Shown here: positions 2 through 32,429 of the stretch, piece by piece | How the letters are laid out: each line of letters starts with the position of its first letter | Numbering within the stretch: the first letter of the stretch is position 1 | DNA from: Candidatus Aenigmatarchaeota archaeon | GTDB taxonomy: Archaea; Aenigmatarchaeota; Aenigmatarchaeia; QMZP01 | DNA: 32,805 nt | Direction of reading: 5' to 3' | NCBI GenBank assembly: GCA_030670085.1 | Contig: DAOVCJ010000008.1 | Location: 1-32,805, forward strand | Notes under the pieces: generated by a model | The model's input: the letters and a program-made list of their open reading frames with translations, nothing else | Database searches by the model: none | Told to the model about the DNA's origin: nothing | Program-made: the position numbers and the translations under genes

Positions 2-3000
2 TGGCACCCGTCAGGAGTGAACACAACCTTCTGGATCAGCTACAACAGCTCAAGCATGGCTCCTGCGAACTTAACCACAACCAACGGAACAGGCTATGCA
101 TACGTAGACTTCAACCCAACCTGTGAATACTCAGTCGGCAAGCACGAATGGTTCGCAGGATCAACCGATGACTACTACCAGAAGCTCAACACCTCAGAAA
201 ACCTCACCATAACAATCAAGGATGACCTAATCCAGACCATAGAGGATCCGGATGGCGAGGAGTCTGACAGGGGAGTCAACATAACCATCAATGTAAGCAT
301 AGTAGATAACTGTAACAATAACATAACGAATGTTACTATTTACTTTATCCTGACCAATGAGAATTCAGGCACAAACTATTACTGCAATGATACGATGGAG
401 AAGGACAACGGAACCTACAACTGCACCTTCAATACAAGTGCTATGGAAGCAGGTTGGTTCAACATAACCATGGTTTCCAACAAGACCTACTACAACGACA
501 ACACAACGATTAAGTACCATGCCTTCTGGATTGAGACAACACCCATACTGGAAAACTCTAGGGTTTCACCATGGATAGGAGGTTGGGGTGCTGACTTCAA
601 CTACTCTGTGCAGGTTACAGACGAGGATGGTGACACTGTAAGGGTAAGACTTTGGGAGAGGATTGTTAACGGGTCATGGAGCCCGATACAAGGACCAGGC
701 GGCTTTTATTACCAAGACGTATCAGGCATAAACCAGACAGTGACCTTCCAGATAACAACGTTCCAGTGTGGTGACCTCGGAGGAGAATTCAACATAACAA
801 GGCAGTTCAAGTTCAACTGCACAGATGATCCAGGTTATCCATCTCAATGGGATACTAACGAGACAGATGTGAAGAACTACACAGAGCAGAGAGACACCGT
901 GAGGATAGACCTCACTGACGGAGACAACGAGTCTATAAAGAGGTCAGGAGGATATTACTTGCTTAGACTAAGGATATTCGACCTTGATACAAACATATTT
1001 ATAGATGTGTACAACACCCAGGGAGAATTCTGGGTAACCAAGAACGGAACAGGAGACTGGGAGAGCAGTGGTTATAAGTATTCGGATGATCAGGGATACA
1101 TAGAATATAACTTCACTCCTGCATGTAGCCCCAAGTATGAGGTGGGCCCACAGTTATGGAGGGGAGGAACATCAGGAGACACTTGCTTCTTTGATAACAC
1201 GTCAGATAATTTCAATCTCTCGATATGGACAGACCCGCTGAATGTGAGCCTTACGATACCCGATGGAGAAAGATACAGGAGAGGTGTGGACAACGTAACA
1301 ATAAGAGGACAAGTTCAGGATGAATGTGGAGGCATCACAAACGCTTCGGTTACGTTACAGGCAAAGATGGGTATTGCATATACATATGACTGCGAAACAT
1401 GGTCAACTATCATAGATGAAAGTGAACAGGGCGGATCTGATGGATGGTACAACTGCACGTTCTGGGGACCAACCAACACCTCTCAGTGGCCAGACCAAGT
1501 CCTTTACAAATTCAACACCACCATGCAGGCAAGCAAAACGTACTACAACGATTCGCAAACCACAACAGATGTAGATTCCTTCTGGCTCAGTGAACCTCCA
1601 GACATATACTATGATGCTAGTCCGCATATAGTAAGTCCACCAAGTGGTGGTTGGGGAGCTCAGCATACATTTACTGCTCATGTCAGAGACTTGGAACTCG
1701 CTGACACTGTCAATGTAACCCTATGGAAGAAGGTGGAGGGAGATAACTGGACAATGATAAACCAGACTAACGTATCCAGTGGAAACACAAGCTTTACAGC
1801 CGTCCAGTTCGTGCACAGATTTAACTGCTCTGAAATAGGACCAAACGAAACCAACTACTATAAATGGAACACCTCAGACAAGTGGGATGACTTCAATGAG
1901 ACATCCACCAACAACTTCCAAATGCTCAAGGACAACATCCAATCCATATGGATGTTGGGGCACAATGCAGAGGTGAACAGAGAAGGGACTGACTACGCGA
2001 CCCTGCAGGTCAGGATAAGAGACACTGATTATTACAACCAATACATAGGAGCTAATTATTCAGGAAGGATCTGGATCACGGTTAACGGAACAGGAACGGG
2101 TTCATGGGATGATGGATACTGGAATTCAACAGATAGTAACGGATATCTAACAATACAATTCAATCCAGACTGCTCTCCATTATACAAAGCTGGATACCAG
2201 GACTGGAGGGGTGGTATAGATTTCAACGATACATGCTACAAGCAGATCAACTCCACTGACAGGAACGTGTCTGTTAAAGGCCAACTCAAGAACTACTTGG
2301 AAATACCACAGTATGGTAACCAGACGGTTGTAGGAGACCCATTGGATGTTAGATTCAATGTTTCTACTGACTGTGATGAGTTAATACCAAATACAACAGC
2401 ATCAGTCGAGTTTGGCGCGCCCGATGATTGGTGGAATGAATCCTATACCCCAACAGATGAGGGAACAGGGTGGTACAACTACACATGGGATACATCATTC
2501 CATATGGGAGGCTACTGGGACATCAGGATAAATTCTAGCATAGACTACTACGATTTAAATACAACAACATGGGAGGACTGGGTCTACCTAGAGAATACAC
2601 CACCCAACATAACCTCTGCAAACGTTACACCATCCTCAGGTGGATGGGGGACTATATTCGAGTACAGTGTCAACATATATGATGACCAGCAGGACAACGT
2701 GACGTGCAGTCTTTACATATCCACTAACAACGGAACCTCATACAGCAAGTGGAATGAAACCATAATATACGGAGGACAGGATTGGTGTAACCTTACGGTT
2801 TCGAATTTCAACTGCTCCCATATGAACTCTGATCAGAATGACACGAATTACTTCTACTTCAAGATAGAGGATGGGACCAACATCAACTACACAAACAACA
2901 TAACAGGTCCTTTCATAACATATGATCCCGTCAACATCACGTACATATATGGTGACGGTTCGCAGATAAACAGACCCGATTCCATGGCCAACAATTCAGC

Positions 3001-6000
3001 CACGTTAATAGTTTACATTAATGATACCCTGAAGAATGAGTCCGTTGTTCTAGGAACAGAGGTGACATTCTGGGTTACGTACAATGGTTCTGACTGGGAC
3101 ACAGGAAACCAAACATATGCAAACGGTTCAGGATATGCAATAGATGATTTCAACCCTGGTTGTTCACATCCGATTTTCACTTACTACAGGGTTGGCAACC
3201 AGACATGGAAGGCGGGGGTAACGGATTCCTGTTATGAGAATATAAATCTATCAAGTAACTACAGCCTGACCATTTACGGGAAGCTCGAAAATGAAATAGA
3301 TTTGCCGCCATTAGGACAAACATATGAGAGGGTCAATGAAAACATCTCGGTAAGGGGTGTTGTAAGGGACGATTGTTTGAACACCCTCCTAGAGGCTAAC
3401 GTAACCTTTAACTTCACCCATGAAGGTGGAACGGAGTACGATTGCTGGCCGACAACCAATATAACCATATACTACGAATGTACAAGGAATACGACTGGAA
3501 TGTTTGCGAGGTGGTACAACACCACCATGTATGCCAACTACACAGACCACTACGATAACATAACCACTACAGGGGATCACTTCTTTATAAAAACCAAGCC
3601 ATTCCTTTACAACGCAACTGCCCTGACAGACCCGGGTGGATGGGGAGAGAGGTTTTACTTCTTCGTGAACATAACAGATGAAGATCTAGACAACGTCACA
3701 GTTAACCTCTACACAAAGAAGTACGGAGCTGCCAGTTGGGGATCTCCAAAGAACTCCACATGGATAGAGGCTCCTGTCAATGAATCTGTTGTTTTGTCAT
3801 GGAAGGATGACACCTGTGATAATACAGATACATGGGAGTTCTACTTCGAGGGAACGGATAACAGAAGCCTTTCGAACGTGTCAAAGACTTATAACTTTAC
3901 TGTAGAGAAAGATGAAGTCAACTTCACTATGATGTTTGGACACAACGAAGTTGTATGGAGAAATGGAACAGATAACCTTACGTTTGTTGTTTACTTATAC
4001 GATACAGACAGAGACACAATAGTGGCTTCAGGATCAAATACAAGCTTCTGGGTAACAATGAATGCTTCTGATCCAAACTCCTGGGACTCTGGGTTTACCA
4101 CATATGTAAATGCAACTTCCTACATAAACTACGAATTCCCGACCTATGTTCCAGAACCAACAGAATGTAACTACACGGTTGGCGTTCAGGAATGGAAGGC
4201 AGGAATGGGTGGGGTTAACGAAGACAAATGCTACATGTCCATGAATTCAACCGAGTACAACATAACCATAAGGGCAAATCTTATACCCCAGATAATATCA
4301 CCAAACGGCGAGGGATTCCTGTGGGGAACACCAATTCCAATAGTAGGATTTATGGAGGATGACTGCTATTCTGTTGAGGATATAGAGATAAGGTGGAGGT
4401 TTGAACACCCACCTGATGTCTTCTATAGATACCAAGATCCAGCAAACCAAAGCAGTGGTTGGTATAATTATACGTTAGCAGGAAGTGATACTCAGAGATC
4501 ACCAGGATATTATGATATTCAAATGCAGGCAAACTACAATAACCAGAATCCTTACTATGGTTACAATTACACAAATAAACCGGATGCCTTCTTTATCGCC
4601 TTGGCACCAGTAATAACAGATCACTCCATAGACAAGACGCTTGCTGGCTGGGGTGAGGAGAACAAGTTCAGTGTAAGGATTAATGATCCTGATCTCAACT
4701 ACAACAACATTACCCTGTGGAAGAGGTTGTGGAATGTTTCAGCAAAGATATGGGAAAACTGGACCCTGGTTGATAATAAATCCATAGATCAGTTAACCAA
4801 TGTATGGGTGGATTTCTTCGAGAGGTTTACCTGCTCAGACATGGGACTGAATGAGTACAGATTTGATACAAAGGATGAATTCAACTTCTCAGACTCTACC
4901 TACAACGACCTGACCAACGTATCAGGAAAGCTCATACATAACGCATCGGATAACGTTCTGGAGAACATATCAAAGACCATACACACTGCGACTGAGGATT
5001 CAGGATTCAACTACTCGGAGCAGATAAATACGTCAGGTGCGATGGAATACTTCAACATAACCATAGAGAATACAGGAAACCAGACCTTCTACTTCAATCT
5101 TACGGTAAACGGAGTCCAGATAGCAGAGAACCAGTCTATTGCAAATGGAACGAATGAAACCACAGATGCAGTGACAGGAGGTTCAACCTTCGCACTTCCA
5201 GGTAACCAGACCATCAACCTGACGGTGATGAATGAATCCGGTTCACCAATGAATGCGAACTACACAGAGTATCTTGCTTACGTGGTCCTGGACTCTGGTT
5301 TTGACTACAACGAAGACATATCCGACTCAGGTGGCGTCTCGTTCTTCAATGTAACAATTGAGAACCTCGATACCCAAACCTTCTACTTCAACCTCACAGT
5401 TAACGGATATCAGGTAGCAGAGAACCAGTCCGTTGCAAGCAGCACCAACGGGACGATTGATGCGTGGGCAGAGGGAGCAAGCTTCACCCTTCCAGGTAAC
5501 CAGACAATCAACCTGACCATTATGGACATATATGGAAATGAGACAGGTGCGAAGTACAGGTCGTATCTGAGCTACACTTCAGGTATCCTTCTTTTCAAGC
5601 TGGAACCAGACAACGTTACGTTAGAGGTCTGCAAGCCAGGACAGTGTTCACCGTACTCCAACACAACAGTAAGAAGACTTGGAGATACCACAGCGTATCT
5701 GAACTTCAGGATATACGATGAAGATTACAGTCTTTACCCGAACGGAACCTCTGGAAGGGTATGGGTAACCGAGGACCACTCCAACTACACTGTTGTTCTG
5801 GACTGCAATTCAGAAAACTCAGGTTACTGCCATGTGGACTACAATGCAACATGTTCATCAGACGTGGGGGTGCAGTACTGGATAAGCGGAACGTATGATA
5901 GTTGCTATGAGCCTGTCAACACGTCTGTCGAGAACCTTAATGTTATAGGCCAGTTGTATGCAAGAACAATCCAGCCAGATGAGAATGACGTACTCAACAG

Positions 6001-9000
6001 GAACGTTAGCGAGATATTGAATATTACCATCGTAGACGAGTGTGACAACTACATCAGCGATACTGATGTAAGCTGGTATAATGAGACCCCGCTTTTGATA
6101 GCGAATGCTTCTGGTTCAAGCTTTACATACTACAACTCAACATGGTACATCCTAGAGGACTATGTGTTGGGACCAGAGATCATCTACACCAATTCGACCA
6201 GAACAAACTACGATATGGGAAGCAACACCACACACGTCTACATATACGGATGGGCATCCATTGACAACATAGACCCAGACAACTACACAGAGTATCCAGC
6301 AGGGGCGATAGTAAATGTCACATGCCATGTTATTGATATAAACACGGGTCAGCCAATCCAGGATTACAACGTCACCTATTACAAGAACGAATCATGGCAG
6401 AACTTCTCCCTGACCAACCAGTACGGAAATGCCACCTGGGAGTGGAACACCACAAATGACACAGCAGGATGGTATGACATAAAGTGTAACATATCAGACG
6501 ATACAGTGAAGTATTACAACACATCCGTCTCTTACATGAGCACCCTGATCAAGGTGAGAAGGCAGCTTATAATAGACCAGATAAATGCCAGCGAACCCAT
6601 CGTGTACAGGAACGATTCTTACTACCCGTATGAAACAGTGATATCGGTTCATGTAAATGATGCAAGCATAGGTAATGCCAACGCAAGCAACGTGACCTTC
6701 TGGAACACGTCAATGATGATTGGCTACTGCATGACCAATGAAAGTGGTAACTGCAACATAACCTGGAACCCCTACAACAAATCTGCTGCAGACAACCACA
6801 CAATCTATATAAACGCAACCAAGGGCGGTCTTGAGGACTCTGCTACAGAGCAGACCTATATAGAGATATGGGGTGTGCTGATACTGAACATAACTTCTCC
6901 GATTAATGAAAGCAATTACACAAAGACGGATAACATAACGCTTGACGTGAACATAACTAACGAGCTTGGGGAGGATATAACCGATGCCAATGTTTCTTGG
7001 TGGAATGAGACGAGCTTCCTTGTTTCAGGGGACCACTATGAAAACTTCTCTCTGACAGGCCAGTCACCAGGTAACAGAACAATCACATCCAACGCAACCA
7101 AGACCTACTACCTGTCGGGTAACGATACAGTTAAGATTCTGATAAGTGGTGTGGCTGATGTCCTTTGGGACTCACCAGCAAACTACACAGAGTTGCCTTA
7201 TCCAGATCCATTCAATGCCACGTGCAGGGTTGTTGATGCTATATCAGGGGCAGGTATAGATGAATACAGGGTTGAGATGCATTACTATTACACCCCACCC
7301 AACTTCACCTTCCTTGCTAACCTCACTACAAACGAATCAGGTCACGCAACCTATAACTTCACACCATCCCAGAAGGGATATGTGACATTCAAATGCAATA
7401 TTACTGACAACTCAACCAGGCTGATAACTGCAGGTATCAGCAATGCTTACGGTATAGTCGCTGTCAATGACACGACCCCGCCTGTTGTAAAGAACGTAAC
7501 AATCGAACCGAACCAGAGCATAGAGGCGAACCTCAACTACACCAACATAACAGCCAACATCACAGACGATATCGGTATTAGCGGGATCTGGATAACCATA
7601 GGTCTACCGAATGGCAGTTATGAATATAGGAACATGACCAATATCAGCAGTGACCTGTACAGATACCAGTACTGGCCACATCAGCATGGTATGCACAATG
7701 TTACCGTGCATGCAATAGATGACCCACCAGAGTACAACCTCAACTCTTCCAGTACATATTATTTCGATGTCTGGGGCAAGATTAATGGGGTTGTAAACCA
7801 GACTATCGAGCAAATGGTTTATGGTATAACCCAATACCAGGGATTCAATTTCAGCATCTACGTAAACTTCACGAACCTCGGACCACCGAAGGGATATTAC
7901 ATAAATTTGAGTGTATTGGATGACCAAGCTATATTGCAGTTCGGGCAGAACATGACAGAATGTGGAAACATGTCAGCTAACGCTACTTGTAACTGGACTG
8001 TTAACGTAACAGTTCCACCAGGAACCCCACCACTGCTCATAAAGATATACGGGTATGCAAACTGGACAGACCCAGACAAGATAGAGAATGCAACGTATAA
8101 CATCACTAATGTTTATGTGTCTTCAAACCCAATGATGAACATAATCGAGGATGAGATTCAAAAGGATGCACCGCATGGGAGAGAAACGTATGTCGGGAAC
8201 ATAACGATTGAGGCTGATGGTAACGATGCAGTACAGTTCATATCCTTGAGCCTGGTTGGAGGAAACCTGGCAACAGACTGTCCTGAATGTGTCGTGACCA
8301 TGATTCCATCCAGCTGGGATTACCTGGCTGCTGGGAATGACTTCACTATAGACATAAACATAACAGTACCAATTGCCCAGGCACCCGGTGTTTACTGGGC
8401 AAAGATCAAGGCAACAGCTGCGAATGCAGAGCAGGACAATGCAACCCTTAACATAACTGTCCCAACCAACAAGACCTGGACCAGAACCCCAACAACCTTC
8501 GGAACAATCTTGCTACTACAGAACACGAGCGGTTCCCTGCCAGGACCTATAATAGCAAAGAACCTTGGTAACACCGTAATCCCACTCAGGGTTTACAGGC
8601 AGGGTAATGGAACAGGTTTGATAACCTCGATAACACCCGAATATTTCGATCTCGGTGCAAACACAACCAGGAACATAACAGTCAACTTCACTGGTGTAGG
8701 GCAGCCGCAGGGATTCTACTACGTAAACCTTCTGATAAGGAATGATACAGCTGATCCAGCAGAGCAGTCGGTTGACTTCTGGCTCAATGTCACGAACATA
8801 CCACCAAATATAACCAATGTGACTGTTGATCCGTTAGTATTCGAGATAATCTATGAGAATGTAAGTATATCAGCAACCATAACAGACAACTTTGGTGTGG
8901 CGTCTGCATGGATAAATGTCACAAGGCCAGGTACAGGCAATTACATAAAGACCATGAACAGCAACGGTTCATTCTACTACATAAACTACATCACAAACAT

Positions 9001-12000
9001 ATCCGGAATCCATGGCTTGAGGATATGTGCAAATGATACAACAGGATTGACGGGGTGCATAAGTGTTATCAACCTAACAGCATCTGGGACAACTCCTGTT
9101 CTGATAGAATCCAACGTAACCTCGATAAACATAACCAATGTAACCCTTTACAGCAGCGACAGCTTCGCTTTCAATTTCACACTGGATCCAATATATGTGA
9201 GGGTCTTCAGCCTTACGTTTAACATAACGGCTCCGGTGAACCTGTCCGTGACAGTAGATTACTTCAACTACACAACGATATACAAGAATGAGACCAGATA
9301 CAATGAGAGCAGTGTTATCATACTAAACGGAACATGGCCAGATACATTCAACGTGAGCCTGATAGCAAACTGGATAAATCTAAATGGCACCTACGGTTAC
9401 AACGTCACGAACATAACAGTCAATGTTATGCCGAATCCTGCCATAAATATAATCCAAGGGAACATCTCCTATGTCATCCTGAGCGGAAACTCAGATAATG
9501 AAACCATAACAATAGAATCCATAGGAAACACCAATACAACCAACATAACATTCCACTGTATACAGGGAGATGTGTGCATCAACTTTACCATGAACTACAC
9601 ACCGAGCTTCATACCTATTCTTCCACCAGGGAACTCAACAGATGTGAACATAACCATTGGGGTCCCACCATTCTATCCAGCAGGCGAGGAGTATGGATAC
9701 ATAAAGGCAAATGGTTCGAGTGGGGAATCTGATATAGTTATAGCCACTGTACAGGTCCCGTTGAACCTTTCCTGGACACAGGAACCAAGCCAGATATCAA
9801 AGAATGTCAGTCACCAGACCTCAGGAGACTTTGGAGAAATAAGCATACACAACATTGGTAATGCATACCTTATCCTGGATGCGGTCAAGTCCGGTGATAT
9901 ATTCCCGTACATAGAAATAAACGTGAGCAAGCTTTACCTGGAGATAGGCGAGTATGGAAGCATAGGAATAAACTACACCGTTCCTTACGTCTCCAACGTT
10001 ACAACCTATCAGGGTCTGATAGTGACGAGCAACTATACAGCAGACCCACCGACAAGAACAACCACTGTTGAAATAATAATACATCCTTACAGTGTGGATA
10101 TAATCTCGCCAACAGAGGCAAACCCGAGAATGAACGTCACTGATAACGACACCATAGAGGTCAGGGTTAATGTTACCTATGGAAACGTCCCGGTAAACAA
10201 CAGCATGGTGTTCAACCTCACCATGCTTAATGAAACATGGTCCATGGAAATGACACTGACTTCAGTGAACTACTCGAATGTAACAGAGCTGTGGCATCTG
10301 AGCTTCACCCCACCGAACATGTCAATGGGAAGCGGATTTGATATAAATATGACAGCCTACTACACAAATTTGAGCCTGAGGTTATCAGACTATGAAGGAA
10401 AGGCGATAATATACAGGGACCCGTATCCGCCACAAATCGAACTGCATGTCCCGGAAAGGGTACCTGCAAACACAACAGCCAGGTTCTACGTGAATGCGAC
10501 AGATTCTGGCGCGATAAAAAACGTAACCATAGAGGTTACATACCCGAACAATGCAACAGACATGTTTGATGCAGAGTTCATAAGCAGGAATGGAAGCGTA
10601 TACAATTATCAATTGAACTTCTCCAACACCTCGCAGCTTGGTATATACTATGTGAATGCAACAGCATATGACCTTGCCGGCAACTCCAATTACACTGTGA
10701 AGACTTTTGAAATATACCCTGGTTTATGGTTTGCTGGTTATGCCAGAGATGAGGAGAGACTGAGCAAGCCACCTATAGTGATAAACTTCACTTTCTATCT
10801 ACCAGGAACGAGCACGGTTACCTTCAACTTCAGTTCAAATTCAACAACAGGTTACTATAATGAGACCATTGATGCGAGGGAATACGAAATAAATGTTGAC
10901 TTCTGGGAAGAATCAATAAGAACCTATAACACAAACCTTGTAACCAGTGTTCATGACCCGGTCATGTTCGGTAAGATACACGACTACAGGACACCGAGGA
11001 GGTCTCTGAAGGCATACTATGTGAATACCTCGAAGCTCAACTACAGCTATGGAGAGATAATCTTCAATTCAACAGAGTGCCAGACACCAGGCAACTGTAG
11101 GTATGCGGATTACATTTCTGAGTATCTGGGAATCTATCAGTGCTCGGGCTGGACTGTGATGTGGGTCTGTGGTGCTAACTGGACAAGACTGGATACGGAC
11201 GTGAATTTAACCACAGGAATAGTGTCTGCCAACGTAACAAGCCTTACAGGGGCATTCGCTCTGGCAGAGTACGTATGTGGTAATGACGTATGTGAGGATG
11301 AGTATGGAGAATCTGTTGGGAACTGCCCGCAGGATTGCATCCCAGCAGCACCGATTCCCCCAATAATACCAGGGGGTGGTGGTGGAGGGGCACTTGTTGC
11401 TGCACCAGGGGCACCGGTTGTTCCGTATGAAATAAAAACCACTCTGATCTACGTTACCCTGAAACAGGGTGAATACGAGATTCATTCAATGGAGGTCCTG
11501 AACAACCAGTACAGGACGATAATCGCAAACTTTGAGGTTGAAGGTCTGATATGGGATTTCATCCAGCTTGAGAAAACAAGCATAACCATACCACCCATGT
11601 CCATAGGACTGGGCAAGATAAAGATATTCACCCTTCCGACCACAACCCCGGGAATATACACAGGTGACATCATAACAAGTATAGGTAACGACACCTATAG
11701 AACCCCTGTAACAATAAGGGTTGAGGAGACCCCAACACCACTGCTTGACGTTCAGATAAGGGCTTTAACAAAGACCGTTGCACCCGGTGATGAATTAAAA
11801 TTTGAAGTAACCTTGCTGAACATGGGAGAAACAGAGAAGATAGAGGATATAGTTGTTATATACCTGATAAAGAACCTTTATACAGAAAAGGTTATAACGA
11901 AGTTTGAAGAGACCCTCGCAGTGGAGCAAAAACTCACGGTGAGAAGGAATATAACCATACCTGGGGATACACCCTATGATAGGTATGTGATTGAGGCAAA

Positions 12001-13279
12001 CGTGACGTATTGGTATGGTATTAAATCCGCATCCTCCAGCGATGTTTTTGATGTTACCCAACTACCACTTCCCTTGCTTGCTTTAAGAGAAATATTCATG
12101 AATTGGATCACATACATCATTATTCCTGCTATTTTTGCAATAATGTATGGAGGTCGGAGATTTTATGCTTACTACAGGGAGAAAAAGAGGAAGAAAACCA
12201 GATACATCTTCCCACTGGACTTCAAGAAGCTTCCACAGGCAGGTCCGGACGCATTCCCTGTTGGTAAGATAGCAGAGACGGATGTTGTTGCATACTGGAA
12301 TCTGCAACAGCTCATGACACACGGTATATCAGCCGGATCAACAGGAGCGGGCAAATCCGTTTCGTCTATGATAGTTACAGAAGAGCTTCTGAAGAGAAAG
12401 GTACCTGTAATAGTTTTCGATCCAACTGCCCAGTGGACAGGATTCCTGAGACCTTGCAGAGACAAGCACATGCTTGACCTGTATCCAAAGTTCGGACTGA
12501 AGCCAGAAGATTCGAGGAGGTTCACAGGAAGGATAATTGAGATAACAGATCCGGACACAACAATAGATGTCAGGAAGTATATGAAGCCCGGGGAGATCAC
12601 AATCTTCCTCATAAATAAGATGGATCCCGCACAGTTAGACCATTTCGTTAGGAAGACCATATCGGATATATTCAAGATACCCTGGCCGGAATCAAAGACG
12701 CTGAAACTGTTCATAGCGTATGACGAGGTCCACAGACTGCTTCCAAAGTATGGAGGTAAGGGCGGATATGTAGCGTTGGAGAGAGGATGCAGAGAGTTCA
12801 GGAAGTGGGGTATAGGATTGTGGCTGATATCGCAGGTATTGATGGATTTCAGGGGAGCAATAAGAGCAAACATATCAAGCGAGATACAGTTAAGAACGAA
12901 GTATACAGGAGATATAAGGAGGGTCAGCCAGAAGTACGGTTTCAGATATTCATCCACCATAAGCAAACTGAAGACAGGAACCGGTATGGTTCACAATGCA
13001 GAGTACAACCATGGTAAGCCGTACTTCATTGAATTCAGGCCATTGCTCCATGATACCGGAAGGCTTAGTGAGAAGGAGATTAATCAGTACATAAAGTACG
13101 ACGAGGAGATAGCAGGGCTTGAGGAAAGAGTAAAGGCACTGAAAACAAAGGGAATAGACACATCTGACCTTGAGTTTGAACTCAAGCTTGCAAGGGACAA
13201 GGCAAACCAGACCATGTTCGCAATGGCAAAGACGTACATAGATTCCGTGAAGACAAAGGTTACAAAGCTTAGAGGTTGA
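2..13279 (+). CDS. Giant surface protein fused to a C-terminal HerA/FtsK-type ATPase (5' partial)
   Basis: The reading frame is open to the left edge, so the true start lies outside the window. Residues here count the GTG at nt 17 as 1. Residues 1 to about 4027 are an Asn/Thr/Ser/Tyr-rich ectodomain of beta-sandwich-like repeats; N-X-S/T sequons are dense (eight in the first 100 residues) and paired cysteines recur, as expected outside the cell. A four-Cys motif lies at 3754-3774 and a six-Gly linker at 3786-3791. One hydrophobic helix (about 4030-4048) is followed by a basic YREKKRKK stop-transfer segment. The cytoplasmic part carries Walker A GSTGAGKS (4107-4114), Walker B LFIAYDEVH (D4236, E4237) and a later ISQ motif, the pattern of HerA/FtsK/TraG motor ATPases, which pump DNA or protein through rings. 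A helical hairpin ends it (4363-4420). The HerA assignment is by motif; the substrate is unknown. It is the first gene of the operon seen here. Confidence 0.88.
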   Translation, partial: WHPSGVNTTFWISYNSSSMAPANLTTTNGTGYAYVDFNPTCEYSVGKHEWFAGSTDDYYQKLNTSENLTITIKDDLIQTIEDPDGEESDRGVNITINVSIVDNCNNNITNVTIYFILTNENSGTNYYCNDTMEKDNGTYNCTFNTSAMEAGWFNITMVSNKTYYNDNTTIKYHAFWIETTPILENSRVSPWIGGWGADFNYSVQVTDEDGDTVRVRLWERIVNGSWSPIQGPGGFYYQDVSGINQTVTFQITTFQCGDLGGEFNITRQFKFNCTDDPGYPSQWDTNETDVKNYTEQRDTVRIDLTDGDNESIKRSGGYYLLRLRIFDLDTNIFIDVYNTQGEFWVTKNGTGDWESSGYKYSDDQGYIEYNFTPACSPKYEVGPQLWRGGTSGDTCFFDNTSDNFNLSIWTDPLNVSLTIPDGERYRRGVDNVTIRGQVQDECGGITNASVTLQAKMGIAYTYDCETWSTIIDESEQGGSDGWYNCTFWGPTNTSQWPDQVLYKFNTTMQASKTYYNDSQTTTDVDSFWLSEPPDIYYDASPHIVSPPSGGWGAQHTFTAHVRDLELADTVNVTLWKKVEGDNWTMINQTNVSSGNTSFTAVQFVHRFNCSEIGPNETNYYKWNTSDKWDDFNETSTNNFQMLKDNIQSIWMLGHNAEVNREGTDYATLQVRIRDTDYYNQYIGANYSGRIWITVNGTGTGSWDDGYWNSTDSNGYLTIQFNPDCSPLYKAGYQDWRGGIDFNDTCYKQINSTDRNVSVKGQLKNYLEIPQYGNQTVVGDPLDVRFNVSTDCDELIPNTTASVEFGAPDDWWNESYTPTDEGTGWYNYTWDTSFHMGGYWDIRINSSIDYYDLNTTTWEDWVYLENTPPNITSANVTPSSGGWGTIFEYSVNIYDDQQDNVTCSLYISTNNGTSYSKWNETIIYGGQDWCNLTVSNFNCSHMNSDQNDTNYFYFKIEDGTNINYTNNITGPFITYDPVNITYIYGDGSQINRPDSMANNSATLIVYINDTLKNESVVLGTEVTFWVTYNGSDWDTGNQTYANGSGYAIDDFNPGCSHPIFTYYRVGNQTWKAGVTDSCYENINLSSNYSLTIYGKLENEIDLPPLGQTYERVNENISVRGVVRDDCLNTLLEANVTFNFTHEGGTEYDCWPTTNITIYYECTRNTTGMFARWYNTTMYANYTDHYDNITTTGDHFFIKTKPFLYNATALTDPGGWGERFYFFVNITDEDLDNVTVNLYTKKYGAASWGSPKNSTWIEAPVNESVVLSWKDDTCDNTDTWEFYFEGTDNRSLSNVSKTYNFTVEKDEVNFTMMFGHNEVVWRNGTDNLTFVVYLYDTDRDTIVASGSNTSFWVTMNASDPNSWDSGFTTYVNATSYINYEFPTYVPEPTECNYTVGVQEWKAGMGGVNEDKCYMSMNSTEYNITIRANLIPQIISPNGEGFLWGTPIPIVGFMEDDCYSVEDIEIRWRFEHPPDVFYRYQDPANQSSGWYNYTLAGSDTQRSPGYYDIQMQANYNNQNPYYGYNYTNKPDAFFIALAPVITDHSIDKTLAGWGEENKFSVRINDPDLNYNNITLWKRLWNVSAKIWENWTLVDNKSIDQLTNVWVDFFERFTCSDMGLNEYRFDTKDEFNFSDSTYNDLTNVSGKLIHNASDNVLENISKTIHTATEDSGFNYSEQINTSGAMEYFNITIENTGNQTFYFNLTVNGVQIAENQSIANGTNETTDAVTGGSTFALPGNQTINLTVMNESGSPMNANYTEYLAYVVLDSGFDYNEDISDSGGVSFFNVTIENLDTQTFYFNLTVNGYQVAENQSVASSTNGTIDAWAEGASFTLPGNQTINLTIMDIYGNETGAKYRSYLSYTSGILLFKLEPDNVTLEVCKPGQCSPYSNTTVRRLGDTTAYLNFRIYDEDYSLYPNGTSGRVWVTEDHSNYTVVLDCNSENSGYCHVDYNATCSSDVGVQYWISGTYDSCYEPVNTSVENLNVIGQLYARTIQPDENDVLNRNVSEILNITIVDECDNYISDTDVSWYNETPLLIANASGSSFTYYNSTWYILEDYVLGPEIIYTNSTRTNYDMGSNTTHVYIYGWASIDNIDPDNYTEYPAGAIVNVTCHVIDINTGQPIQDYNVTYYKNESWQNFSLTNQYGNATWEWNTTNDTAGWYDIKCNISDDTVKYYNTSVSYMSTLIKVRRQLIIDQINASEPIVYRNDSYYPYETVISVHVNDASIGNANASNVTFWNTSMMIGYCMTNESGNCNITWNPYNKSAADNHTIYINATKGGLEDSATEQTYIEIWGVLILNITSPINESNYTKTDNITLDVNITNELGEDITDANVSWWNETSFLVSGDHYENFSLTGQSPGNRTITSNATKTYYLSGNDTVKILISGVADVLWDSPANYTELPYPDPFNATCRVVDAISGAGIDEYRVEMHYYYTPPNFTFLANLTTNESGHATYNFTPSQKGYVTFKCNITDNSTRLITAGISNAYGIVAVNDTTPPVVKNVTIEPNQSIEANLNYTNITANITDDIGISGIWITIGLPNGSYEYRNMTNISSDLYRYQYWPHQHGMHNVTVHAIDDPPEYNLNSSSTYYFDVWGKINGVVNQTIEQMVYGITQYQGFNFSIYVNFTNLGPPKGYYINLSVLDDQAILQFGQNMTECGNMSANATCNWTVNVTVPPGTPPLLIKIYGYANWTDPDKIENATYNITNVYVSSNPMMNIIEDEIQKDAPHGRETYVGNITIEADGNDAVQFISLSLVGGNLATDCPECVVTMIPSSWDYLAAGNDFTIDINITVPIAQAPGVYWAKIKATAANAEQDNATLNITVPTNKTWTRTPTTFGTILLLQNTSGSLPGPIIAKNLGNTVIPLRVYRQGNGTGLITSITPEYFDLGANTTRNITVNFTGVGQPQGFYYVNLLIRNDTADPAEQSVDFWLNVTNIPPNITNVTVDPLVFEIIYENVSISATITDNFGVASAWINVTRPGTGNYIKTMNSNGSFYYINYITNISGIHGLRICANDTTGLTGCISVINLTASGTTPVLIESNVTSINITNVTLYSSDSFAFNFTLDPIYVRVFSLTFNITAPVNLSVTVDYFNYTTIYKNETRYNESSVIILNGTWPDTFNVSLIANWINLNGTYGYNVTNITVNVMPNPAINIIQGNISYVILSGNSDNETITIESIGNTNTTNITFHCIQGDVCINFTMNYTPSFIPILPPGNSTDVNITIGVPPFYPAGEEYGYIKANGSSGESDIVIATVQVPLNLSWTQEPSQISKNVSHQTSGDFGEISIHNIGNAYLILDAVKSGDIFPYIEINVSKLYLEIGEYGSIGINYTVPYVSNVTTYQGLIVTSNYTADPPTRTTTVEIIIHPYSVDIISPTEANPRMNVTDNDTIEVRVNVTYGNVPVNNSMVFNLTMLNETWSMEMTLTSVNYSNVTELWHLSFTPPNMSMGSGFDINMTAYYTNLSLRLSDYEGKAIIYRDPYPPQIELHVPERVPANTTARFYVNATDSGAIKNVTIEVTYPNNATDMFDAEFISRNGSVYNYQLNFSNTSQLGIYYVNATAYDLAGNSNYTVKTFEIYPGLWFAGYARDEERLSKPPIVINFTFYLPGTSTVTFNFSSNSTTGYYNETIDAREYEINVDFWEESIRTYNTNLVTSVHDPVMFGKIHDYRTPRRSLKAYYVNTSKLNYSYGEIIFNSTECQTPGNCRYADYISEYLGIYQCSGWTVMWVCGANWTRLDTDVNLTTGIVSANVTSLTGAFALAEYVCGNDVCEDEYGESVGNCPQDCIPAAPIPPIIPGGGGGGALVAAPGAPVVPYEIKTTLIYVTLKQGEYEIHSMEVLNNQYRTIIANFEVEGLIWDFIQLEKTSITIPPMSIGLGKIKIFTLPTTTPGIYTGDIITSIGNDTYRTPVTIRVEETPTPLLDVQIRALTKTVAPGDELKFEVTLLNMGETEKIEDIVVIYLIKNLYTEKVITKFEETLAVEQKLTVRRNITIPGDTPYDRYVIEANVTYWYGIKSASSSDVFDVTQLPLPLLALREIFMNWITYIIIPAIFAIMYGGRRFYAYYREKKRKKTRYIFPLDFKKLPQAGPDAFPVGKIAETDVVAYWNLQQLMTHGISAGSTGAGKSVSSMIVTEELLKRKVPVIVFDPTAQWTGFLRPCRDKHMLDLYPKFGLKPEDSRRFTGRIIEITDPDTTIDVRKYMKPGEITIFLINKMDPAQLDHFVRKTISDIFKIPWPESKTLKLFIAYDEVHRLLPKYGGKGGYVALERGCREFRKWGIGLWLISQVLMDFRGAIRANISSEIQLRTKYTGDIRRVSQKYGFRYSSTISKLKTGTGMVHNAEYNHGKPYFIEFRPLLHDTGRLSEKEINQYIKYDEEIAGLEERVKALKTKGIDTSDLEFELKLARDKANQTMFAMAKTYIDSVKTKVTKLRG
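17..4954 (+). repeat. About 1-kb super-repeats in the giant ectodomain
   Basis: The N-terminal part of the giant protein is built from degenerate units of roughly 330-356 residues. A GGWG/AGWG landmark recurs at nt 578, 1646, 2639, 3635 and 4643 (residues 188, 544, 875, 1207, 1543). Each unit also has an FW(V/I)(T/S)-x-N module ending in a pattern like F-x-P-x-C...VG-x-Q-x-W-x-(A/G)G...D-x-C. It then has a module beginning D-(D/E/N)-C and ending in GWYN-like residues. The paired cysteines suggest one disulphide per module. A further FWVT-like module without the full unit follows near nt 5755. Units have diverged strongly at the DNA level, so the expansion is old. Confidence 0.85.
4997..5584 (+). 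repeat. Tandem duplication of a 98-residue module
   Basis: Two adjacent 294-bp units (4997-5290 and 5291-5584) encode near-copies of one domain. Both start DSGF(N/D)Y and share FYFNLTVNG, (I/V)AENQS and LPGNQTINLT in the same order and spacing. Silent and conservative changes dominate, so this duplication is more recent than the surrounding 1-kb units. Confidence 0.85.
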
Positions 13280-13321: not shown

Positions 13322-14980
13322 ATGGCTAAAAAACCTGAAGAGATTTTGACTGAACTGCAGAAGCAGGAGGAGGATATTGAGATATTATTGTCATCACTGG
13401 AGGAGGCCTACTCAGAGGCCGGTATAACAGAGAAGCATTACAAAGAGGTCAAGACGAAAAATCAGAAGAAGCTGAAGGAGATAGGGAGGAAGATAAAGAG
13501 GATTGAGAAAAAGGTGGGTAAGAAGGTCAAAGAGAAAAAACCAAAGACAGTGGGGGAGATTATAGAGGCAGAGGAGGGGCCTGTCCCTATATCAAAGCCT
13601 CTTGAGGGTGAAATGCCCGCTGAGCCTTCTGCTGAGATGCCTAAACCCACCCCTGTGGCGGCTCCACCAGCTGCAAAACCCGGGAAGGAGAGATTCTCTG
13701 CAGACGACATAAAGGGCATGCTCTCAAGGTTTGTAAAAGAGATAAAGCCAGGGGGACCCGAGGTTCTACCAAAGGTTGAGAAGATGGAGGTCAGGCTGGA
13801 GAAGATGAACGCTTTCCTTAATGCAATGAAAGATGAAAAAACTTCTGGGAATGAAACCATAAGGAGGCTGACAGAGGAGATAGGTGAAATGAGGTCGAAT
13901 ATTGGGGCCCTTGACAGGAAAACAAGCCAGCAGGAGATAATTGTTACTGAAATAAACACCGCAATTGCTGATCTGAAACCACAGAAGTTTGTGAAGTTTT
14001 TGAGAAAGGAAGATGCTCAGGTCAAGATGCATGATGCAAAGATACAAAGGATCGAAGACGTGACATCCCTCCTAATAAAAAGGATAACACAGGTTGAGGA
14101 AGTTCTGAAAAAGATAGGCAGCCTTGAGAAGATTGCTGATTTTGGGAGGGATATCGCAAAGAGGCTTGTTGAGATCGAGAACAGGGAAAAGAGAATAGGA
14201 AGGATTTCAGACAGGATAGATTCAATCTTTATGCAACTGAACAAGAGGCTCGATGAGTTTATGCTGTACAAGGCAAAGCAAGACACACTCGATGAGCTTT
14301 CAAGGGAGATGATGAAGACCATAGATGAGATGAATACCAAGATCGAAGGGTTTGCCAAAAAGGAGGATCTGAATCTGCTCAGGGAAACGTTGGAATCCAG
14401 AATATCTGGAGTTGGAGTACCTGCTGCTTCCCCAGAGGTGATGAAACTGCAGGAGCAGAAGAGTGAAATAGAGGGGTTGCTTGGCATCTTAGAGGAACAG
14501 TTCAAGAAGGGCGAGCTCAAGAAGGAGGAGTATGAGAAGGCAAAGAAAGTAAACACAGAGAGAATGGAGAGCATAGATAAGAAAATCCAGGAGAAATCGC
14601 AGGCTGCGTCAGTAGGAGTCCCGGCTCCTGTAGAGGAGCCCCAGGGGCAGCCAGCACCAGAGCCCGTAAAAGAGGAGAAGCCTACAGAAGAGAAACCAGG
14701 GGCTAAGAAGAAGAAACCCACAGAGGAGGAGAAACCTGCGGAAACCCCACTTGCGAAACCCACGTTAGAAGAGAAACCAGTAGAAAAGACAGTGGAGAAG
14801 CCCGTTGAAAAAAAGGCTGTGGAAAAACCACTGGAAGAGAAGAAGCCAGTGGAGGAGAAAAAACCAGCAAAGAAGGGCAGAAAAGAGCAGATGCTAGAGG
14901 AACTTGAGGAGTCCTACAAGAAGGGTGAAATAAGCAAGGAAGCTTATGAGAAGACAAAGAAGATGATAGAGGAGGGGTAA
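13322..14980 (+). CDS. Coiled-coil, Lys/Glu/Pro-rich cytoplasmic linker protein with three SHOCT-like hairpins
   Basis: No signal peptide or membrane helix is visible, so the 552-aa product is probably cytoplasmic. A helical hairpin at about residues 17-60 is followed by a Pro/Ala-rich linker (about 85-120), a long heptad-rich coiled coil (about 125-365), a second hairpin (381-425), an E/K/P tail of EKPxE-type repeats (about 430-515) and a third hairpin (519-552). The hairpins share LLxxLExxYKKGEIxKExYEKxKK, the look of SHOCT oligomerisation modules; one more copy ends the next gene's protein. The gene sits between two surface-protein genes and its stop abuts the next start. A scaffold joining the cytoplasmic ends of its neighbours is an inference. 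I recognise no enzyme motif and no named orthologue. Confidence 0.85.
   Translation: MAKKPEEILTELQKQEEDIEILLSSLEEAYSEAGITEKHYKEVKTKNQKKLKEIGRKIKRIEKKVGKKVKEKKPKTVGEIIEAEEGPVPISKPLEGEMPAEPSAEMPKPTPVAAPPAAKPGKERFSADDIKGMLSRFVKEIKPGGPEVLPKVEKMEVRLEKMNAFLNAMKDEKTSGNETIRRLTEEIGEMRSNIGALDRKTSQQEIIVTEINTAIADLKPQKFVKFLRKEDAQVKMHDAKIQRIEDVTSLLIKRITQVEEVLKKIGSLEKIADFGRDIAKRLVEIENREKRIGRISDRIDSIFMQLNKRLDEFMLYKAKQDTLDELSREMMKTIDEMNTKIEGFAKKEDLNLLRETLESRISGVGVPAASPEVMKLQEQKSEIEGLLGILEEQFKKGELKKEEYEKAKKVNTERMESIDKKIQEKSQAASVGVPAPVEEPQGQPAPEPVKEEKPTEEKPGAKKKKPTEEEKPAETPLAKPTLEEKPVEKTVEKPVEKKAVEKPLEEKKPVEEKKPAKKGRKEQMLEELEESYKKGEISKEAYEKTKKMIEEG
14971..14977 (+). promoter_or_regulatory. Shine-Dalgarno site inside the end of the preceding gene
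   Basis: The sequence ggagggg lies within the last codons of the upstream gene, four bases before the ATG at 14981. With the stop and start directly adjacent, this indicates translational coupling of the two genes. Confidence 0.6.
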
Positions 14981-17900
14981 ATGAAGAGAAAAGCCATACT
15001 CGTAGCTTTATTCGTAGCACTGGTAGTTGTACTTGGTAATCAATACACGACCTCCCTAGAGGTCGGTGACGAATGGTTCAACTCAACCTGGCACTACAGG
15101 ATAAAGATAGATGTGAATACATCTGACTATGACAGAATGAACTGGCCTGTGGAGTATGAGGTAAACTTCACTCAACTCTTCGAGCAGATGAACACAACAG
15201 GAACCTTTGATAATCAATCAGTAAGGGTTTTTGAGTATAATGATGCAGGAGGTATCATGTGGGAGATGCCCAGCCAGTTCGATGAAGCAGAAGATTACAA
15301 CGCCTCCACAAATGCGGCTGGTACGCTTGTTTTCATTCTCAATGGAACAACCAATGCAAATACCCTGAGGCAGTTCTATGTCTACTTTGACAGGACAGAG
15401 GCAGGGACGAAAGAGGATGAGGCATATGATACAGGAATGAAGGTTACAGGCACTGATGGAGATTACACAATAAACAACACACAACTCAACTTCAGAATAG
15501 ATACGGAAAGGGGAGAGAATACATCTGGCCTTTGGAACGTAACCTATAATGACCAAGACCTGACTAATCTTTTCAACCCATCAGGAGCTTCAGATAAAAC
15601 AAGGGAGTTCACAATAATAACTGACGGAACGTATAACTACACATACGACCTCAGAGGCAACGCAACCATAATAGAGGGTCCTGTGAGAGTAACCATAAGG
15701 CAAACAGGCTACGAGGCTTACTGGAACGATCCTGACAACAAAACCAACAGGACCAAGATCGTAAAGGAATACTTTTTCTACCTTAACAACACATACGGTG
15801 TTTCAAATATCAGTGCTTGGGTTCTGATAAGGCAAAATATTACAAACATCTATACTTCTGACATATACAGGGAATCTAAGTCAGGTTTCCCAGCCTTAGA
15901 TGCCCTGGGAGCTTACAGCTCAGGGTACAAGGTTGCATATAACTATTCAGTTGACCCTGGTTCATGGGTAAGGGCCACCTACACGCTGGGAGGTTCTATG
16001 ACTGCTTTTATAAATGTCAATGAAACAGGTACAAGCAACTTCATTGCTGGAAATTCTTCGGATTCGGACAGGGTAGGTATAGATCTCGCCAACACAACCA
16101 TACAACCAAACGAATCAATAGTGGATGTGGCTGCGATTGTTTTTGGTGATACAATAAAGACGCCTAATATTATAACCAATGTAAGGGACAGGTTGATAAA
16201 CCCGCTTAACATAACTGCTCACGCACCAGAGGGCTGGTGGATAGAGATCGATCCGAAGATGTACACAACCCAAGATGTCGATGTTAACATATTCAACAGA
16301 AATGAGTCATCTCTGATAGCAGCAAACATAACCTATGATCCCTTCAACTCTACTGTGAGTGCAAACGCAACCTTCAACAACGGAACCATCGATACGTCAG
16401 ATGACATAACAATAGTTTTGTATGATGACGGTACTCATGGTGATAACCAATCAGGAGACGCTATCTACAGTAACTACTTCAACTTCACCAATACATCAAC
16501 TGTTGGTGAATGGAACTTCACTGTGAGAATCTATGACAGTGAAGGATACTTCCTGAATGAGACAACCTTTGTTTTCAACATCACGGACATCTACAACCTT
16601 AGCATGAGGATATGGAATGACACAGGACTTCCGCGAACCACTAATGCAACACTAAATCTTACTACTTACAGACGGGATATAATGATACCTGGTGCGAACA
16701 TAACATGTTCTTATGATTCCACACCAATCCCTGACCAGAACATAACAGATCTTGGTGACGGGACATACAATATAACCTTCTATACAGGCGATGAATACGG
16801 TCTCTACTATCTTAACTGTACAGCCACCAAGGATGGAAACAGTGGTCAGGAATCTGAAGAATTTACAGTCGAATCACCCCAAACTAATATTGGTATAACA
16901 AAACAGCCAAGCGTTTACGAACTTTACAATATCACATACTTCCATAACGAAAGCTTCAACCTGAGAATAACCATGAACAACACAGGGAATTCCTCTGCAT
17001 ACGATACTAACATAACCATAAGCCTTCCGCCAGAGCTGGTACCCAACACAACGTTTTATAACATTGGGAACATACTCATTGAGACAGAGGGGGTTAGGAA
17101 TTTCAACATAACAATTCTGAACAACACCCAGTCAGGAGAATATATAATAAACATAACAGTCAACTGGACAAACCTTAACGGAAGCCTGGGATATAACGAG
17201 ACCCTCGTCAATGTGACAATATACCAGAATCCTGAGATCCGAGTACCAGAGGAACTAAGAATTGGGATAATCGCACCTGGAAATTATAGTCTTATAGATA
17301 ACTTCACTGCGATATCCTATGGAAACTACTATCTTGACAGCATAACCTTCAATGTTACGAATCCAGACAATTTCACGATAGAGTTCGATCCAGAGAACAT
17401 ATCCGGTATGAATCCAGGAGAATCCCAGGAAGTTCAGATGAATGTTTCTGTTCCATCATATCAAAAAACCGGAATATATAACCTCATGGTTAATATAACA
17501 TCCTCTAACAACGGCTATGATAACCTCACTCTCCAGATAATAGTTTCTGGAACAAACATGAGTCTTGTTGTCCAACCAGAATACTATATTTCCTACAATG
17601 TAACAGCTTTTGAGAATGAAAACTTCACACTCAACGTAAACACAACAAACACCGGAAATACAACCGCGTTCTATGCATCCATAAATTTCAGCCTGCCCCA
17701 AAACTGGACCGTTACCAACTCATCGAAGTGGTGTGGAAACGTCAGCAGGGGAAATTTCTGCTACGATGAGTTCAATGTAACCATAGCAAACCTGACTCCA
17801 CCAGGAAACTACACTGTCAACGTAACAGTGAACTGGGAGGACATAGACATTGGCCTGAAGTCAAACACCACCATAATAGAGGTCGAGGTTGTATCCAATG

Positions 17901-20853: not shown

Positions 20854-21678
20854 CTACTTGGTTAGTGACTTTAATTTGAAATCCAGGAGTTCCCTTCTTG
20901 GTTTTTCCCTCCTGAAAAAAGAGGAGACTCTGGAGAAAAATCCCTGGGACTTGTACGTTTCCCCAGCAATGTGCGCGGCAAGCTTCATTATCTCCTTGCT
21001 TGCCTTTGCCCTCGGATTGTAGTCAATAACAGGAAGCTTTGCAGCCAGACTCTTTATAACGTTTTTATCCCTGGGTATCTCGGATATCACAGGCAGCTCG
21101 ACCAGTTGCTCTATCTCGTTCGGGAACAGTTCATGCCTGCCCTCACCGCTCATATTCAGAACAATTCCAAGGGGCTTTGCCCCAATCTCGCTTGCAACAT
21201 TAAAGCATTTCATCGTATCTATTATCGTGGGGATAAACGGTGTTGTGATGAAGAGAAGTTCATCACTCGCTTGTATGGTTGCCATTACCTCTCTCCCAAA
21301 GCCAGGGGCGCCATCCAAAAATATAAAATCCGCACTCCCAAAAAGAGTCTTTATATGTTTTTTCAGTTCTGCGACATCAACACCCTTCAAGTCATTCAAG
21401 GACAAGGAAGCGGGTATTATCCTCATACCAGGTATGCTGTAATTGTATATGGCCTTGTCAATTCTGACCTCTCCCGACAAGACCTGATTCAATGAAACAG
21501 GGTAGTAATACATCCCAAGATAAAGACCGAGATGAGAAGCCGTTACATTGCAATCCACTATGATAACATCCTTTTTAAATTTTGAGGCAAGGGCTGCTCC
21601 CAGGTTGATGACTATGGTGGTTTTTCCAACACCGCCTTTCCCAGATATCACCCCGATTATTCTGCTCAAAGAGAACAC
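20854..21678 (-). CDS. MinD/ParA-family deviant-Walker ATPase
   Basis: The 274-aa protein has the deviant Walker A motif KGGVGKTT (residues 14-21) with the signature Lys14, a switch-I-like VDCNVTASHLG, and a Walker B region FIFLDGAPG. These define the MinD/ParA/Mrp-type dimeric ATPases that position or assemble cell structures. The ending FFSRVSSFFRREKPRR could form an amphipathic membrane-binding helix, as in MinD, but it is followed by further residues. The start is GTG at 21678; no Met occurs before Walker A, and a TATA-like box lies 27 nt upstream, so the mRNA is probably leaderless. It converges on the surface operon with only 2 bp between stop codons. A role in placing that surface complex is inferred from context; an alternative is general division-site or archaellum-like positioning. 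Confidence 0.9.
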   Translation of the reverse strand: MFSLSRIIGVISGKGGVGKTTIVINLGAALASKFKKDVIIVDCNVTASHLGLYLGMYYYPVSLNQVLSGEVRIDKAIYNYSIPGMRIIPASLSLNDLKGVDVAELKKHIKTLFGSADFIFLDGAPGFGREVMATIQASDELLFITTPFIPTIIDTMKCFNVASEIGAKPLGIVLNMSGEGRHELFPNEIEQLVELPVISEIPRDKNVIKSLAAKLPVIDYNPRAKASKEIMKLAAHIAGETYKSQGFFSRVSSFFRREKPRRELLDFKLKSLTK

Positions 21679-21723: not shown

Positions 21724-22383
21724 TTACCACTTGAACGGGTACATGAACTTATTGAGTTCAGCCTCACTCCGTATTATTATCGGAATGTCCTTACCTATCT
21801 GTAGGCTTAATTTTCGGATGTAGTTTAGAAGGTCCCTGTCTGAGAAAACAGATACTATCGTTGATATTATTCTGAGAACCACGTCTGCCCTGTATTTTCT
21901 ACAGAAAAGGATAAGGTTGAAGAACAAGAGGAACAGGAATATATCAGAGAATATGCAGGGTCCGTATTTGCCGAGCAAATCCCTGTCATTCTTGTAGAGG
22001 ATCTTGAGGTTCTCTTGGTCAAAAATCTCCTTTGCATGATCCTTTATGAATTTCTGAATAATCGGCCATTTTACACTCAAAAGCGCTATGGGGAGCCACT
22101 GATTTCCTGTTCCTTTCAAGAGATACTGATCCTTTATGTACTCGGGAATCCATTCGAATTTTGGCTTCAGTTTCCTACCCTCCTTTACTATAAATTTTTC
22201 TTTTATCATACGAATGTACAATGGTTTCTTCAATCCCATCTCGTTATGATAAAGATAATTCGTGTTTATTTCCCATCTGTTCTGTATCTCGAAAACCGAT
22301 ACTCCCTTATCTGGATTTCCTGCACAGTTTAGCCATATAAGCCAGAAATTCTTATACCCACGAATGTCAGATTTCTTTTTCAT
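21724..22383 (-). CDS. Hypothetical protein, possible winged-helix N-terminal domain
   Basis: I do not recognise this 219-aa protein. Residues about 28-75 (VSVFEIQNRWEINTNYLYH, then basic strands) have the helix, helix and wing-like layout of a winged-helix DNA-binding domain; this is only a fold impression. The middle has an unusually hydrophobic aromatic stretch, FSDIFLFLLFFNLILF (about 147-162), which could be a buried core or a membrane segment. The rest is mixed and Lys/Ile-rich. Its codons are more AT-rich than those of the surface operon. The ATG has a TATA-like box about 25 nt upstream, so a leaderless mRNA is likely. The gene lies 45 bp upstream of the MinD-type gene on the same strand and diverges from the giant coiled-coil pair. 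A local regulator is one possible role. Confidence 0.75.
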   Translation of the reverse strand: MKKKSDIRGYKNFWLIWLNCAGNPDKGVSVFEIQNRWEINTNYLYHNEMGLKKPLYIRMIKEKFIVKEGRKLKPKFEWIPEYIKDQYLLKGTGNQWLPIALLSVKWPIIQKFIKDHAKEIFDQENLKILYKNDRDLLGKYGPCIFSDIFLFLLFFNLILFCRKYRADVVLRIISTIVSVFSDRDLLNYIRKLSLQIGKDIPIIIRSEAELNKFMYPFKW

Positions 22384-30483: not shown

Positions 30484-30485
30484 AA

Positions 30486-30491
30486 GACCTC
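30486..30491 (-). promoter_or_regulatory. Shine-Dalgarno site of the PfkB-type kinase
   Basis: The minus strand reads ggaggtcttatg, giving a canonical ggaggt with short spacing to the ATG. It fixes this start. Confidence 0.6.
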
Positions 30492-30555
30492 CGATACGTA
30501 TTAAAATTATTTTAGCAAGTAGAAAAAGGTTTCGCTCTATGAAACGTTACCTGTC

Positions 30556-30564
30556 ATATTTATA
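30556..30564 (+). promoter_or_regulatory. TATA-like box for triosephosphate isomerase
   Basis: The sequence atatttata lies about 35 nt upstream of the ATG at 30595, predicting a leader of about 10 nt. Confidence 0.45.
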
Positions 30565-30594
30565 GAATCCACACATATTTTTAAAAAGAGTGAT

Positions 30595-31257: not shown

Positions 31258-31258
31258 A

Positions 31259-32362: not shown

Positions 32363-32383
32363 AAATAAATATTCCATTCTAGG

Positions 32384-32396
32384 CTTATATAATTTT
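32384..32396 (-). promoter_or_regulatory. TATA-like box for FBP aldolase/phosphatase
   Basis: The minus strand reads aaaattatataag, centred about 27 nt before the ATG at 32362. It points to a leaderless transcript and supports the shorter start. Confidence 0.6.
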
Positions 32397-32429
32397 AGGA
32401 TTGGTTCCAAGCCTGAAACTTTCAAACCT

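Follow-up and report, generated by a model that had tools for sequence, protein, structure and literature searches.

The giant gene that opens the window (the whole stretch of DNA analysed, 32,805 bp, equal to contig G000:C19 in full, from a genome of 768 kb that is 88% complete) can be assigned, by homology of its intracellular C-terminal domain, to the SPEARE family of giant surface proteins. It belongs to a sister clade of the nanohaloarchaeal SPEAREs, in which the fusion gene is followed by a conserved block specifying a coiled-coil protein, a NEW3 surface protein and, often, a MinD ATPase, and it is this block that is new here. Given the SPEARE precedent, the value of the finding lies in a wider family, in the placement of the ATPase nearest to HerA, and in the partner genes. 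SPEAREs have mainly been discussed for Nanohaloarchaeota, and are now tied to a wide DPANN family and to at least one Hydrothermarchaeum. This bears on how DPANN archaea attach to hosts and exchange material, a question that the named partner genes could make testable.

The giant fusion protein

The fusion gene (2-13279, + strand) is 5'-truncated and, on translation of the window, free of stops over 4,425 codons; the N-terminus and any signal peptide of the protein are missing because the start of the contig cuts the 5' end of the gene. Hydropathy analysis gave one membrane helix in the 4,425 residues, at 4031-4049 (12092-12148, + strand; helix 3-32 of the model), where a single helix at about 4030-4048 had been predicted. 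The ectodomain (about 4,025-4,030 residues) carries 290 N-glycosylation sequons, where shuffled sequences of equal composition gave 72.7±7.3; the cytoplasmic part, 375 residues long, has 2. On hydropathy and the sequon contrast, the protein is mostly extracytoplasmic, with its membrane helix near the C-terminus, and the original prediction of a sequon-rich ectodomain of more than 4,000 residues was borne out. A Cys-rich juxtamembrane motif, CGNDVCEDEYGESVGNCPQDC (11276-11338, + strand), is kept in the 11-kaa homologues as CGDGICDHGYGESPFTCPRDC.

The joining of ectodomain and ATPase in a single frame, also predicted, held when relatives were compared. The junction (11200-12400) is read in one frame by G001 and G002, whose ATPases are 93% and 82% identical, respectively, to that of the window, and the same ectodomain-ATPase junction is intact in complete homologues of 11,259, 11,248, 12,055 and 10,835 aa from other assemblies. 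An assembly chimera, or a frameshift joining two genes, was rejected because dozens of relatives continue through the junction in frame.

The description of the ectodomain as repeats stood only for one part of it. Motif-based alignment defined five diverged, beta-rich tandem units of about 340 aa each (554-5641, + strand), with GGWG or AGWG at residues 193, 549, 880, 1212 and 1548, and with the units 22-34% identical to the first. Clear tandem repetition is confined to about residues 185-1880; the remaining ectodomain is diverged sequence with weak matches to the beta-sandwich families NEW3, MG2 and transthyretin. Self-BLAST of the giant protein at 1e-4 found no repeats because the units are too diverged, and it was alignment on the GGWG motif that revealed them. 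A model of an ectodomain unit was almost all beta, at low confidence (pLDDT 62).

Relationship to SPEARE proteins and distribution of the fusion

The view that no characterised system has this layout proved mistaken. SPEARE proteins reaching 8,553 aa were described by Hamm et al. (2019); they have a TM helix at the C-terminus and a conserved intracellular part (PMC6642349), and the published layout comprises an Ig-like fibre, a TM helix and a cytoplasmic ATPase (PMC6642349, PMC10266531). A SPEARE protein is made in vivo, and its ectodomain was recovered in a >315 kDa fraction (PMC6642349). Known examples from Nanohaloarchaeota are SVXNc_0300, BNXNv_0298, Nha. antarcticus NAR1_1133 and SG9 AQV86_04780, and similar intracellular sequences were noted earlier in Aenigmarchaeota, Woesearchaeota, Micrarchaeota and Altiarchaeales (PMC6642349, PMC10266531). 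In phmmer searches, the window ATPase matched, over about 380 aa, the C-termini of 9,409- and 8,880-aa nanohaloarchaeal ORFs at 2.4e-104 and 1.5e-112, and an ORF with a start giving 8,553 aa, the published SG9 length, at 1.1e-107. From their exact lengths and a downstream second ATPase, the first two are probably SVXNc_0300 and BNXNv_0298. With this homology to the C-terminal ends of ORFs that have published SPEARE lengths, the fusion layout counts as already known, and the SPEARE papers together with homology at E 1e-104 to 1e-112 rule out an absence of prior art. Nor is record protein size a novelty, a 12,127-aa SPEARE having been reported from MAG KA27 (PMC8470020), which is locus L095 of this study.

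The window protein resembles SPEAREs in its giant adhesin-like ectodomain, C-terminal TM helix and homologous ATPase, and in the coiled-coil gene that follows. Hamm et al. give one or more ectodomain laminin-G domains as a SPEARE feature (PMC6642349). Neither laminin-G (by Pfam search) nor a protease domain was detected in the 4,425 aa that the contig encodes; the gene's 5' part lies beyond its end. Differences were found in the gene neighbourhood. The neighbours of the window gene include a NEW3 surface protein and MinD, where SPEAREs have instead a tandem second ATPase. In one such ATPase, SVXNc_0299, a PF03135 domain was reported, in the same paper that took the intracellular domain of SPEAREs for a VirB4/TraG-like ATPase and put forward SVXNc_0300 as a secretion straw (PMC10266531). 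The giant protein itself would then be the channel for effector injection, and cryo-ET of the SVXNc consortium, which showed cytoplasmic bridges measuring up to 11 nm (PMC11001535), agrees with such a role. We consider a straw improbable. A chain of Ig-like or beta-sandwich domains has no obvious lumen, and in G182 the corresponding ORF (623 aa), which follows the gene for the 9,409-aa protein and may be the same gene as SVXNc_0299, matched DUF87 at 4.4e-13 in Pfam but gave no PF03135. The old 'type III restriction' label of SPEAREs stems from ResIII P-loop matches, which in a true SPEARE (8.5e-7) were weaker than the match to DUF87 (4.9e-12) on overlapping residues. PMC10266531 rejects a restriction and a protease domain alike for SPEAREs; neither was found in the window protein, and the two are not taken here as defining the family.

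A search for the same fusion in related genomes, suggested with the original prediction, found its ATPase in 55 of 156 Aenigmatarchaeota genomes (17/39 of those of high quality) and in other DPANN lineages. Scanning of GTDB representatives gave 288 encoding stretches, and the record names of the best 80 of these include Aenigmatarchaeota, Nanohalarchaeota, Woesearchaeota, Pacearchaeota, Micrarchaeota, Altiarchaeota, Parvarchaeota, Jingweiarchaeum, Hydrothermarchaeum and a few others, some of the 80 records (Heimdallarchaeota, Halanaerobiaceae) being possibly misbinned. Complete homologues have a hydrophobic helix at the N-terminus as well as a TM at the C-terminus. Complete frames with the N-terminal helix include those of 2,954, 2,945, 2,950, 8,573, 8,880, 9,409, 10,835, 11,248, 11,259 and 12,055 aa, the longest having been measured by joining adjacent stretches of one contig. 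Ectodomain length ranges from about 150 aa (L087, L114) up to about 11,600 aa, with the ATPase staying nearly constant. The genome of the window also encodes a paralogue (G000:C11; 2,954 aa), with an ATPase 45% identical to that of the window.

In G001 (L038/L039, CP070801), a single-contig genome of the same genus, the NEW3 gene specifies 414 aa and the fusion ORF 1,568 aa, and the second copy contains a TAG; the shortened copies could reflect either gene decay or assembly collapse of repeats. Tandem pairs of ATPase-bearing genes (L095, L106, L108, L114, L119, G180, G182, G183) often combine a giant with a short-ectodomain version, which suggests that rings may be mixed and bear few long fibres. 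In Jingweiarchaeum, the 12,055-aa homologue (L161-L163, G162:C23) has a winged-helix-like domain before its first TM (a weak match, HTH_24 E 5.6e-4), and in G064 (L126:424-1323) a separate wHTH-TM gene lies directly upstream of the 11,259-aa gene (HTH_11, 4e-7); a DNA-binding partner that is fused in one case and split in the other may hint at regulation.

Placement of the ATPase domain

The HerA-like ATPase domain with its helical C-terminal tail (12257-13276, + strand; PF01935, PF05872, model and Foldseek) had been predicted to be of HerA/FtsK type, and in searches against HerA, FtsK and VirB4-type families HerA came first. Pfam assigns the domain to DUF87/HerA_C, with PF01935 (DUF87) scoring 29.7 bits vs a cut-off of 23.2. 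A profile of 20 relatives matched SsoHerA (4d2i) at 3.1e-11 and TkHerA at 4.4e-11, then other HerA proteins, and FtsK at only 0.008. With an AlphaFold2 model (pLDDT 81.5, pTM 0.77), HerA was the best Foldseek match (E 1.9e-8, TM 0.42), above the conjugation ATPase TcpA (3.3e-6), FtsK, and VirB4 (4ag5, 1e-4). Sequence profiles and predicted structure support a position nearest HerA within the HerA/FtsK superfamily, and rule out one outside it; the ATPase assignment of SPEARE-type proteins shifts towards HerA.

Both predicted motifs are present. Walker A, GSTGAGKS, occupies residues 4112-4119 (12335-12358, + strand), with its Lys invariant in 98/98 homologues, and YDEVH occupies residues 4240-4244, with the Walker B Asp-Glu (12722-12727, + strand) also invariant (98/98); the sensor Gln (SQ; 12833-12835, + strand) is found in 97/98. 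R4267, in the motif REFRKWG (12791-12811, + strand), corresponds, by counting along the profile alignment, to the R of SsoHerA EGRKFG at chain position 381, which we take to be the arginine finger. The 98 ORFs were chosen by REFRKW, so that its own 98/98 is not independent, and the motif was invariant also in a 20-sequence BLAST-derived set. The catalytic positions (the Lys of Walker A, DE of Walker B, the sensor Gln and, by alignment, the arginine finger) are all in place, and the invariance of catalytic residues shows that ATP use matters; transport does not follow from it.

The window protein shares its ATPase core fold with HerA (SsoHerA 4d2i, TkHerA 9x1l), and both Walker motifs, the sensor Gln and the finger Arg fall in register, but a membrane anchor and ectodomain stand where HerA has its own N-terminal domain, and the core is shorter, with about 120 residues from Walker A to Walker B. 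CedB and CedD are likewise membrane-anchored HerA-type ATPases, and the best NCBIfam matches of the window ATPase were CedD (a DNA-import ATPase; 25.9 of 600 bits) and HerA (23.5 of 800), both far under cut-off. A Ced-like uptake motor, its ring pulling DNA or another nucleic acid from a contacted or lysed partner, would suit gene-poor DPANN cells, and HerA proteins are DNA translocases. Such a motor is nevertheless unlikely: the VirB4-like N-domain carried by CedB/CedD (PMC11868833) was not seen in the window protein, where the TM helix and giant ectodomain replace it, and the VirB6-like channel (TrbL/VirB6, PF04610) was absent from the 88%-complete genome, as was the VirB4 N-domain PF03135, in a search that covered these two families. 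The VirB4/TraG ATPases of type IV secretion belong by fold to one superfamily with the window ATPase (VirB4 4ag5 1e-4, TcpA 3.3e-6), but on the VirB4 N-domain and VirB6-type channel searched for, the window protein does not qualify as a member of the type IV secretion or Ced systems.

Partner genes and a possible contact machine

The fusion gene is followed by genes for a 552-aa cytoplasmic coiled-coil partner without a TM helix (13322-14980, + strand) and for a second surface protein of 1,956 aa (14981-20851, + strand), with an N-terminal hydrophobic helix, NEW3 domains in four matched stretches, a C-terminal TM and a coiled cytoplasmic tail. Beyond these, on the - strand, are an archaeal MinD ATPase (20854-21678; TIGR01969, 220.9 vs a cut-off of 201.75 bits) and a 219-aa 'DYKNF' protein (21724-22383), which matched no family in a family search and has homologues in 8 examined loci, the window included.

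An ATPase-domain tree (FastTree, midpoint root, no outgroup) gave two clades, the first holding the nanohaloarchaeal SPEAREs, the paired tandem ATPases and the paralogue G000:C11, and clade 2 holding the window gene; membership was read off the tree, and one branch, of Woesearchaeota, was counted with the others although the midpoint root places it beside clade 2. A coiled-coil homologue lies at most three genes downstream in 40/40 clade-2 loci having a downstream ORF, and in 29/35 other loci. The NEW3 surface protein was present in 18 of the 25 clade-2 loci with at least 9 kb downstream vs 2 of 14 others, and MinD in 12/25 vs 1/14, which leaves roughly half of these clade-2 loci with no MinD found. 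Three MinD genes of this genome score over the cut-off and, judged on a single genome alone, one could lie beside the giant gene by chance; the link is argued because MinD recurs across families and phyla (L054, L057, L067, L074, L078, L056).

A MinD-positioned, contact-dependent machine for adhesion and translocation, belonging to the SPEARE sister clade, is the reading that we favour, at about an even chance. By analogy with HerA, to which they are homologous, the ATPase domains would form a hexameric (or mixed) ring beneath the membrane; such a ring would therefore bring several fibres together, all emerging from a single point on the cell. They may bind a partner cell, as the SPEARE literature on host contact and DPANN biology would suggest, and MinD and the coiled-coil protein, from gene context, may place and cluster the assembly. 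Where the cells touch, ATP hydrolysis could then drive a polymer, either unfolded protein or DNA, through the ring or alongside it, both transport and cargo being presumed for the giant protein.

Clearly less probable, though the strongest competitor, is a regulator of adhesion that transports nothing, in which ATP-driven assembly and disassembly of the ring clusters or tensions the fibres (inside-out control) and the coiled coil and MinD serve as a polar scaffold. HerA-type domains of solved function are translocases or pump-like, and every catalytic position, finger included, is retained in the window protein, which is not obviously needed for clustering. On the other hand, no channel, pilin, VirB6-like partner or secreted substrate was recognised near the giant gene, its most constant neighbour is the cytoplasmic coiled-coil protein, and the ectodomain varies in length on its nearly constant ATPase. 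ParA/MinD-family ATPases also organise archaeal motility structures and other cargoes (PMC11588486).

A further reading is put forward only tentatively: the clade-2 proteins, with their coiled-coil, NEW3 and MinD partners, might constitute a distinct DPANN contact machine. MinD would place a pump of HerA type in which ring subunit and host-binding fibre are one and the same protein, and its parts would be unrelated to type IV secretion.

In the window, MinD is adjoined by a pair of very long genes for cytoplasmic coiled-coil proteins (1,137 and 1,191 aa; 22583-29568). They found no support as conserved partners, no homologue of either being found beside other loci at E 1e-3; G067 likewise has two coiled-coil genes adjoining MinD, with no detectable homology. 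A small, weakly M50-like membrane protein (HELGH/HEITH, E 0.011) occurs in G067 (L129:2593-3033), G064 (L128), G044 (L132:4939-5421) and L069, either close to MinD or with the coiled-coil gene on one side and the NEW3 gene on the other, and might act on the giant protein as a site-2-type protease. The block in the window is flanked by metabolic genes (29563-32425), which specify a PfkB-family kinase, triosephosphate isomerase and an archaeal fructose-1,6-bisphosphatase.
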